In this document: piece by piece, positions 60,656 through 64,000 of the stretch | How positions within the stretch are numbered: the stretch's first letter is position 1 | Layout of the letters: the number at the start of each line of letters is the position of its first letter | Origin: Ferrimicrobium sp. | GTDB taxonomy: Bacteria; Actinomycetota; Acidimicrobiia; Acidimicrobiales; Acidimicrobiaceae | Direction of reading: 5' to 3' | Assembly: GCA_022690815.1 (NCBI GenBank) | Contig: JALCZJ010000003.1 | Span: forward strand, 62,001-126,000 | Length of the DNA stretch: 64,000 nt | Notes under the pieces: generated by a model | What the model was told of the DNA's origin: nothing | The model's database searches: none | Seen by the model: only the letters and a program-made list of their open reading frames with translations | Made by a program: the position numbers and the translations under genes

Positions 60656-61441
60656 TTGACGGATCCCCTGGCCGTCCTTGCGGCGATCGACGCTGCCATT
60701 GATGAGACCGCGCGGCTAGAGGGCGAGGGTTGGGAAAAGTCTCCTGGTGAGTGGGTAACCGAGCGTGATATCGCGATTGAAACAATACTCAGTGAGTACC
60801 TCCTCTCCTTGATGCCGGGGAGTCGTGTCCTTGGAGAAGAGGCTGCGAGCGATGCCGATGGGCTACTGGTTGAGACGAATGCGGGGTCGCTTTGGGTCGT
60901 AGATCCAATCGATGGAACCGCGAACTATGTCGCCAGAGCCGGACCGGTGGCCACCATGGTGGCGCTGTCCGTCGACGGCAGTACGCAACTTAGTTGCATA
61001 CGCATACATGGCGGCGAGGCGCTTGTGGCCAGTACTGATGGGGCGAAGATTCTCGATGCGGGCATGTCACGGGTAGAACATGGCTCAATCCAACATACCC
61101 CGACTGCACGGGGAATGATCTCTGGTCGCTTCTTGTCGGCCAGCGTGCACCAGAGGTTGCGAGAAAGCGTTTGTGCCTATGAGATTATGGATGGCTCTGG
61201 GTGTGCAGGAAGAGACTATCTCGACCTGGTGGTTGGACGTTTGGATTTTCTTGTCTACGAGCGGGTGTTGCCATGGGATCATCTTCCCGGAGCGCATGCC
61301 GTCCAGGTAATGGGAGGATCAGTGAGCCTCGGTGACGGTTCGACCTATCGTGGGCAATCTGAGATTCGTGGTCTGGTGGCCAGTCGGTCACGGGATCTCA
61401 CGATGAGGCTGCTGGCGGCTCGTCGAGAGGCGTTTCACTAG
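60656..61441 (+). CDS. Inositol monophosphatase family protein
   Basis: A 261-residue Mg-dependent phosphatase-like protein. RVLGEEAAS (about 58-66), WVVDPIDGTANYVARAGP (about 81-98) and LPWDHLPGAHAVQVMGG (about 205-221) carry the metal ligands of the IMPase/FBPase/CysQ superfamily. It hydrolyses inositol phosphate or a related sugar phosphate; a link to mycothiol (inositol-containing) metabolism through the adjacent mca is attractive but inferred. The start is TTG 60656, 3 nt after the SCP2 stop, without a strong ribosome site. Confidence 0.85.
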   Translation: MTDPLAVLAAIDAAIDETARLEGEGWEKSPGEWVTERDIAIETILSEYLLSLMPGSRVLGEEAASDADGLLVETNAGSLWVVDPIDGTANYVARAGPVATMVALSVDGSTQLSCIRIHGGEALVASTDGAKILDAGMSRVEHGSIQHTPTARGMISGRFLSASVHQRLRESVCAYEIMDGSGCAGRDYLDLVVGRLDFLVYERVLPWDHLPGAHAVQVMGGSVSLGDGSTYRGQSEIRGLVASRSRDLTMRLLAARREAFH

Positions 61442-61975
61442 CGTAGCGAGCGTGGGTTCTTGACTCCCTTGCGACACGTTGAGCCTAGGGCCCGTGGACA
61501 ATGGATTCGGACCAAAGCAGATAAGTGTAGCGCTTCGATTCAACTAATGTTGAAAATTATGCGAGCTTTTGAGTGTGTATTGTCGATCTTGGCCGACTGC
61601 AAATCACCGCGATCTAATTGTCTAGATTTGGTAAAAGTAGATGTAGAGTGGCTGTATGTACGCGGAGAGTGTTTAACAAAGCGAGCAACAAGGGTGTTGG
61701 AGTCAGCCCATTGTGCTCACCTGTTCTGTGTGATCGACCTGCAATCGCTGGATAGTCATATTTCTGATCATTGTATTACCTGATCAGAATGTTGTTTTGA
61801 GAAAATATGTTCCCTGAGTTGTACGGCGCGACTAGCGACGCTATAGTAAAGGAATAAAGCATTGAGTCACTTGGTCGAATGGTCGCTTTGCCGAGTGGTT
61901 AGCTAATGGCGAAACCGGTACGTTGTTTGGGTGGAGAACCAGTGATGGGTTCTCATTGGAACAGGGAGGTCGACG
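61442..61975. other. 534-nt AT-richer gene-free region
   Basis: No supported gene. The base composition shifts to AT-rich here compared with the rest of the window. The promoter at 61819-61847 points to the TasA-like gene. Frame 61460-61783 has no recognisable domain. Confidence 0.6.
61819..61847 (+). promoter_or_regulatory. Strong sigma70-type promoter upstream of TasA-like gene
   Basis: TTGTAC (61819-61824), a 17-bp spacer and TATAGT (61842-61847) match the consensus well. The expected transcript start is about 120 nt before the coding region. Confidence 0.65.
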
Positions 61976-62752
61976 AAGCCGTCACGGTTAACATTAGCAG
62001 CAGGCGTGCTTGGATTGGCTTTGCTAGCATTTGTAGATGTTGGTGGGTACGCAGCATTTACTAGTAATGCGAACTTAAATACGAGTGCCACAGCCGGTAC
62101 TTGTTTTCTGAATGCAAGCGTAGGAAAAACGGGGGAGACTTGTGCTTCTGGGAATAAACAGCAGCTCTGTGTGCCCCGGGATGCTGACAACTACGCAAGC
62201 AACCAAGGGAGTTTGTCCGGGCTACAGAATGATCAGGTAACTACGACAGATGGCAGTAATGCCTCTCTCGCGTGGACAGCGCCTAATATGGCATCAGGTG
62301 TCGAGTACTGGGCTGACAGCTATCTTAAGGATGCCGGCACCCTACAGGGTTAAGTGTCCGAGGTAACCTCTACACTGCCAAATGGTACCCCATCTGCCCT
62401 GTTGCAAGACATGACCGTTACGGTTCAAGAGCTCACGGGATCTGATAATGGGCAGACATGGACCAATCTTACTAGGGTTGGCGGTAACACTATTGATGGA
62501 TCACATTTTGGTGCTGGTAGTTATGCTGCACCTGGGAGTTATACGTTTAGTATGGCTGTGAATAATTAAAACGTCCCGTTCCTGCAGCCATTTGATGTAA
62601 ATGTGACTACTGGTAGAGCTAGCGTAAACTCTGGGGATGAACAGAGTGCAGAGTGTTCAGTGATTTACACCCTGCTTGATGCAGCCACAAATACAGCGGA
62701 GGGGCAGACTGTTAGCCCAACGTCGAATTTTGTTGGCACTTCATTGTTGTAG
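61976..62752 (+). pseudogene. TasA/camelysin-like secreted protein, interrupted by two in-frame stops
   Basis: Read in one frame, this stretch gives a SipW-type signal peptide and precursor: RLTLAAGVLGLALLAFV, then GGYAAFTSNANLNTSATAGT, the hallmark of camelysin/TasA surface-fibre proteins. The frame goes on through TAA at 62351-62353 and TAA at 62567-62569 to a final TAG at 62750-62752, with a coherent, Thr/Ser/Gly-rich sequence between all three, including DMTVTVQELTGSDNGQTW and GAGSYAAPGSYTFSMAV. The total is about 255 residues. GGGAGGTCGACG at 61964-61975 looks like a ribosome site but is followed by AAG, so a normal start codon is missing; GTG 62006 would cut the signal peptide. I label it a pseudogene, but readthrough is not excluded. 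Confidence 0.7.
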
Positions 62753-62850
62753 TTAGGGCAAGGGTAACTCGGGTATTCTGACGGAGGGGGTTGAGCTGTT
62801 GATATGCGCATTCCCGTATCGTCTCTGTGCAGTTCAAGTGAAGGTGGATC

Positions 62851-63543
62851 TTGCTTGTCACAGAGCAATCGGCTGAGGCGAGTGAGTCACTGCTGATTAA
62901 TCCCGATAGCGTCGCTTTGCGATTAATACCGAGAAGGTCGTGTGGAAGGCTCGTATTACTATGGCTGGGGCGCGATGTGGCGCTTTTGGTTTGCCTGCTC
63001 GTTGTCACCTTGGGGTTCTCGGTTCTGTCGGGTCGTTGGGAGCTGTTGCTGGTTTTCTCAGGTTCGATGAGCCCGGGGATACCGACAGGAAGCATAGCGT
63101 TCGCTTAACGTGAGCCGATGAGGGACCTGAAATTGCACGACGTCGCGGTGTTCCATCCGCCAAATTGTTCGCGTGTTATTTACATGCATCGGGTTATCCC
63201 GTTGCCACGGGTCCATGGCGAGGTTGTGGTGCGGACAAAGGGTGATGCCAATCCTGTACCTGACCCGCGGACTCTCCACATCACGGGTACCACGGTCTAG
63301 CTCGTGCGCTACCGGGTTCTGGAGGTTGGATACGTTGTCCTCTGGGTTCATTCGAATACTGGACGGGAAGTGATCTTGACGGTGGCTAGGCTCTTGGCCC
63401 TCGGTCTGGTGATCTCTGCCGTGCGTGATGGCGACGAAAGCCCATGGCCACATCAGAGGTATAGGTTGCGTTATCTCGTAGCTTTGCAGTGTTTGACGAA
63501 AGTAGGTTGGCACCCAGATAGCGATAGTCTCGGGTGCGCGTGA
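62851..63543 (+). pseudogene. sipW: SipW-type signal peptidase I, interrupted by two in-frame stops
   Basis: One frame from TTG 62851 gives a membrane segment (VALLVCLLVVTLGFSVL), the serine site SGSMSPGIPTGSIAFA, then TAA at 63106-63108, REPMRDLKLHDVAVFHPP, the histidine in YMHRVIPLP, the RTKGDANPVPDP acidic site, then TAG at 63298-63300, and a second hydrophobic segment (VILTVARLLALGLVISAV) to a stop at 63541-63543. All catalytic elements of an ER-type (SipW) signal peptidase are in order and in frame. Without readthrough only the first 85 residues, with the serine but no histidine or aspartate, would be made. It lies directly after the TasA-like gene, its expected substrate. Confidence 0.7.
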
Positions 63544-63986: not shown

Positions 63987-64000
63987 GTGAACGGCCGCTT

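Follow-up and report, generated by a model that had tools for sequence, protein, structure and literature searches.

A broken surface-protein and SipW-type signal peptidase gene pair behind a c-di-GMP-II-type leader, with an intact copy in the same draft assembly

Lesions in the window copy

The window, the whole stretch of 64,000 nucleotides that was analysed, corresponds to C3:62001-126000 of a 2.54 Mb draft assembly of 60 contigs. Close to its right end lie two adjacent reading frames on the plus strand, the first for a surface protein whose N-terminus has a hydrophobic signal region, the second for a signal peptidase. Their left neighbour is an intact gene of the inositol-monophosphatase family (60656 to 61441, plus strand; Pfam PF00459). 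Between this gene and the pair lie a c-di-GMP-II-type riboswitch aptamer at 61847 to 61929 (plus strand; Rfam RF01786, 34.3 bits, E 1.6e-5 in 660 bases) and a ribosome-binding-like GGGAGGT at 61964 to 61970 on the same strand. The pseudogene of the SipW-dependent-type surface protein (TasA/camelysin-like) occupies 61976 to 62752 and that of the SipW-type signal peptidase 62851 to 63464, both on the plus strand; from 63465 to the window end at 64000 there is a spacer without a recognised gene, to which no strand applies. The earlier note had also placed an intact promoter at 61819 to 61847, for which a consensus scan of 61442 to 62000 returned no site. A transcription start near this stretch is nevertheless plausible, because the stretch abuts the putative riboswitch-like leader.

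The surface-protein frame is interrupted by TAA at 62351-62353 and TAA at 62567-62569, and the peptidase frame by TAA at 63106-63108 and TAG at 63298-63300. All four stops were thus found where the earlier note had put them, and homologous protein flanks each of them on both sides. The window copy was aligned with two intact relatives, a paralogue on contig C18 of the same assembly and a copy in another genome of the genus, G005. In this three-way alignment, a sense codon stands at each of the four stop positions in the C18 copy and in the G005 copy. The alignment also bears out the observation that GGGAGGT is followed by AAG and a lost start: AAG stands at 61976 in the window, both intact relatives have a start codon at the same spot, and the GGGAGGT, identical in the three sequences, was kept despite the loss. 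In-frame length differences were seen as well in the surface-protein pseudogene.

The note had further stated that neither frame needs an indel to be restored. This part does not hold for the peptidase gene, in which comparison with the intact paralogue revealed a one-base deletion after about position 63432. With a gap placed there, 22 of 32 compared bases match, as against 8 of 33 when no gap is allowed, and none of 20,000 random window stretches reached 22 matches. The deletion was tested against the C18 copy, the stops and the start loss against both C18 and G005. Because the ancestral terminator of the peptidase gene is left out of frame at 63462-63464, the final 36 residues of the frame that had been read through to 63543 are not SipW sequence. 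The pair therefore carries six separate lesions, namely the lost start, four stops and one deletion.

Intact relatives and the nature of the stops

A DNA search of the own genome returned the region itself and one second place, C18:665-2260, at 73% identity. The C18 operon is intact and encodes a 258-residue surface protein (784-1560) and a 204-residue peptidase (1651-2265). The surface-protein pseudogene, with two TAA codons inside, has 68% protein identity to C18:784-1560, and the peptidase pseudogene, with one TAA and one TAG, has 77% to C18:1651-2265. At the protein level, searches with E up to 10 detected no copies of either gene in the own genome beyond these two. When 60 genomes were searched (E 0.001 or better; own genome included), the surface protein had a match in 6 and the peptidase in 22, and the scan of named genomes kept 80 loci. 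The only close relative beside the own genome is G005, of the same genus, with 70% and 69% identity.

G005 has just one copy of the operon, which is intact and has the left neighbour that is also seen in the window; the order is inositol-monophosphatase gene, operon, YdjC-family gene, ftsH. In all four of the genomes G001-G004, the matches to the flanking genes are about 215-504 bases apart, too close for the operon to lie between them; in G006, the YdjC gene alone of the two flanking genes was found. A search for an operon DNA remnant in G001-G004 and G006 found none. Given the small gap and the missing remnant, the operon is present at this place only in the own genome (G000) and G005, among the genus genomes where the place is visible. 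About 0.5 kb past the window end, on the minus strand at C3:126529-126870, the contig carries only the 3' part of a YdjC-family gene, a broken fragment that contains an in-frame TAG; over its final 93 bases, up to the contig end, it is identical to the intact C18 gene. The non-coding flanks of the two copies showed no local similarity above shuffles, although one global alignment of the spacers scored above its shuffles; we regard these flanks as too diverged to be informative.

Substitutions in the window copy were polarised over 438 codons with G005 as the single outgroup, a procedure that makes the polarisation approximate. The window branch has 93 nonsynonymous changes (stops included) to 49 synonymous, compared with 39 to 51 on the paralogue branch (Fisher p = 0.001), a difference that indicates relaxed selection on the window lineage. 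Taken gene by gene, the test gave p = 0.003 for sipW alone and p = 0.087 for tasA alone, and a comparison of codon positions 1 and 2 with position 3 between the two branches gave p = 0.042. The rough omega is 0.80 on the window branch and 0.32 on the paralogue branch; the former may combine a period of constraint with subsequent drift. Under the window branch's own substitution spectrum, neutrality of all 142 polarised changes would predict about 3.5 stops; four were counted, and three of these fall at polarised changes. Since the stop count is about what drift alone gives, the surprise voiced in the earlier note at the scarcity of frameshifts is not a strong argument.

One possible explanation for stops within otherwise readable frames is programmed readthrough, or a suppressor tRNA, through which the two proteins would be produced at a low level or in certain conditions. 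The frame is indeed recognisable on either side of all four stops. Against this, the stops are not conserved in either of the two close copies, the first gene lacks its start codon, the second contains a frameshift, substitutions follow a near-neutral pattern, and the adjacent gene fragment is broken too. The tRNA genes argue the same way. We checked all 45 tRNA-family matches of the own genome with ARAGORN, 30 as loci and 15 as stretches, and no suppressor anticodon for TAA, TAG or TGA turned up among these tRNA genes, a set that is perhaps incomplete, given a draft of 60 contigs in which no His anticodon was seen. With neither conserved stops nor a matching suppressor tRNA, we regard readthrough or suppression, both of which the earlier note had entertained, as extremely improbable. 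A changed genetic code was also considered and rejected, since TAA and TAG end ordinary nearby genes as well as the intact copies.

Since the assembly is a draft, errors of sequencing or assembly could instead have introduced the stops into a gene pair that is in truth intact. It is very improbable, however, that errors account for six separate lesions together with an excess of amino-acid changes over both genes taken together and a broken neighbour fragment.

The earlier note had listed a pseudogene pair among its explanations, and this is the one that the intact C18 and G005 copies, the lost start, the frameshift, the nonsynonymous excess and the lower score of the window's riboswitch leader support. 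It had reasoned that sense codons in place of the stops in sister strains would mean decay, which is how both close intact copies came out, and that the start loss favours decay, which is upheld by the first gene's start in both of them. The four stops and the start loss are disabling lesions absent from the intact homologues. The finding is ordinary gene decay and is not to be pursued as recoding. One observation counts the other way: away from the lesions the frame can still be recognised, as can the peptidase motifs, which implies some constraint until fairly recently. After the copies parted, one copy may have met the need, and the window copy would then have lost its start codon and gained four stops and a frameshift, with the leader and the adjacent gene fragment drifting alongside. 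Any transcript of this copy would be predicted to give no functional protein pair. Like other decayed bacterial gene duplicates, the window copy has lost a start, acquired nonsense changes and a frameshift, and evolved under relaxed selection while an intact copy exists. It differs in having more nonsense changes than frameshifts, and is otherwise unremarkable.

Arrangement of the two copies

For the arrangement of the two copies, we favour a tandem duplication, with modest confidence. Alternatively, the window and C18 copies might be two alleles of one locus from co-existing strains, merged in one assembly, so that no duplication is needed and the window allele is still a decayed one. Several features of the contig ends speak for such alleles. 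The final 93 bases of C3 are identical to C18:3627-3719 and are preceded by about 78% identity, C3 together with C18 to the right of the overlap reproduces the gene order of G005, and the start of C18 falls within an insertion-sequence-like element that also occurs on C55, C4 and C30. On the other hand, 73% identity would be unusually low for copies within one species, the contamination estimate is 0.9%, and the 93-base overlap is shorter than the stretch of exactly 127 bases shared by the starts of C18 and C55. We infer that 127 bases is the assembly word length. Because the overlap falls short of this presumed word, it does not have the appearance of a simple merge in the assembly graph; the comparison of 93 with 127 bases is in itself compatible with duplication and with strain alleles. 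On balance, we consider strain alleles a possible but less probable account than the tandem duplication. Whichever arrangement holds, the sequence comparisons make it very probable that the window operon reflects ordinary decay.

The insertion-sequence-like end was located at C18:1-406, C55:1-406, C4:64187-64592 and C30:28911-29116, and on C18 it lies about 250 bases upstream of the riboswitch of the intact operon. The copy on C4 includes a 585-residue stretch between stops, which is probably a transposase of the IS1634 type.

Protein families and the riboswitch-like leader

The intact C18 peptidase is a SipW-type (ER-type) signal peptidase, as it passes the cut-offs of both TIGR02228 (77.4 bits; cut-off 51.85) and PF10502 (27.2 bits; cut-off 22.9) and resembles SEC11A and SEC11C chains in the PDB (E 5e-6 to 1.3e-5). 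With the Bacillus SipW equivalog NF046067 it scored 64.5 bits, under the cut-off of 190. The surface protein was harder to place. The earlier note had called it TasA-like, a term that is loose: homologues at loci L047 and L049 pass the model for the SipW-type signal peptide, but scores with the TasA model were far below its cut-off. Against the signal-peptide model TIGR04088 (cut-off 19), the C18 protein reached 10.6 bits; among six homologues scanned, L047 (21.1) and L049 (23.9) pass, L050 scored 14.8, and those of G005, L043 and L045 were not listed. Against the TasA equivalog NF046066, the best score was 15.3 bits, in a relative, compared with a cut-off of 450, and the C18 and G005 copies were not listed. 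On the strength of the two homologues that pass, the surface protein is best called SipW-dependent-type.

A fold model of the G005 surface protein, built from three aligned sequences, reached a mean pLDDT of only 42. An alignment of four rows (A2) was dropped because L050, the fourth, aligned poorly, and its other three rows were kept as alignment A4. With this low-confidence model, no Foldseek match was as good as E 0.001, VIA-align produced middling Z values of up to 7.2, and TasA was not among the 50 rows listed by each program. A profile of the surface protein had no match among PDB sequences. The signal-peptide region does match camelysin/Peptidase_M73 (PF12389), for which L049 passes with 26.2 bits against 22.5. 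This match, however, covers only about 35 N-terminal residues, the C18 paralogue stays below the cut-off at 11.2 bits, and the G005 protein has no PF12389 match.

Bacillus subtilis has a tapA-sipW-tasA operon. The C18 and G005 operons likewise pair a surface protein with an ER-type signal peptidase, and the intact C18 peptidase matches the Bacillus SipW model and TIGR02228 at the scores given above. Unlike the B. subtilis operon, the one described here lacks tapA and consists of two genes, of which that for the surface protein comes first; it has a riboswitch-type leader and is actinobacterial, judging by its relatives, its window copy is broken, and the TasA model gives no more than 15.3 bits, in a relative. 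By analogy with these families, the adjacent peptidase of the intact operon would release the surface protein for assembly outside the cell, and binding of c-di-GMP to the leader RNA might set surface-protein expression.

The leader is a more interesting part of the locus than the decay, and it recurs in some related genomes. RF01786 matches stand at the same place upstream of the operon in all three copies, with 34.3 bits in the window, 46.6 at C18:654-737 and 49.1 at G005:C40:17299-17380, all below the gathering score of 53.5. Searching the 60 genomes with strict filters, by which weak matches are lost, gave 26 matches in 18 genomes (E 0.01 or better; own genome included), at loci that include L209-L228 and L244-L246. 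In none of the 60 genomes did a match exceed the gathering score, and this hints at a divergent branch of the c-di-GMP-II class; none of 14 control genomes has a match.

Covariation was assessed in an alignment of 19 of the 26 matches (18 distinct sequences), from which the six lowest-scoring and one of 36.1 bits were left out; the C18 match supplied the structure, from which one ambiguous pair was dropped. Changes on both sides were found in 19 of 21 pairs, and covariation was 0.616, compared with 0.238 for shuffled and at most 0.169 for slid alignments. Counted by cells, pairing is 98% in helix 2, 92% in helix 3 and 59.9% in helix 1, the outer pairs of which are poor. With the c-di-GMP-II riboswitch, the leader shares its position upstream of the operon and three covarying helices.

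Within the genus, six of seven genomes have an RF01786 match, and in all six a SipW-type gene follows at least one of them. In the own genome this gene is broken after the window riboswitch and intact after that of C18, and in G001, G003, G004 and G006 it belongs to a different riboswitch-led locus. Outside the three operon copies, a surface-protein or SipW-type gene was found downstream of 7 of the 23 other matches (phmmer, up to 3.5 kb; some contigs end sooner). With the three copies included, 10 of 26 matches precede such a gene, and for the other 16 no such gene was found downstream. The gene downstream of the match in G009 is SipW-like by eye only.

The evidence leaves evenly balanced, in our judgement, the proposal that a divergent, sub-threshold c-di-GMP-II branch controls SipW-processed surface-protein operons in the genus and in some other members of the order, tying c-di-GMP directly to fibre or matrix output, with a window leader that has outlived its genes. 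The intact version may matter as a compact operon of surface protein and signal peptidase under a c-di-GMP-II-type RNA leader in uncultured actinobacteria. If the proposal is true, surface-protein output would be under direct second-messenger control. In the literature searched, which left most subscription journals outside, we found no paper on a c-di-GMP-II riboswitch with TasA or on a c-di-GMP riboswitch in Acidimicrobiia; a search on the c-di-GMP-II riboswitch in Actinobacteria, over the same literature, showed none on a riboswitch-led operon of surface protein and signal peptidase.

Riboswitch and operon do not always go together. An Rfam scan of six further operon loci (L043, L044, L045, L047, L048 and L050) gave a c-di-GMP-II-class match, under threshold, before the surface-protein gene of one, L043 in G025; the other five had no match of this class at E up to 0.5. 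Other RNA-family matches were seen around these loci. CRISPR-repeat-like matches, under threshold, occur in two related genomes at L043 1547-1581 and L045 10531-10565, and a group II intron match above threshold (RF02003, 55.2 bits) lies at L044 339-474, just downstream of the operon in G020.
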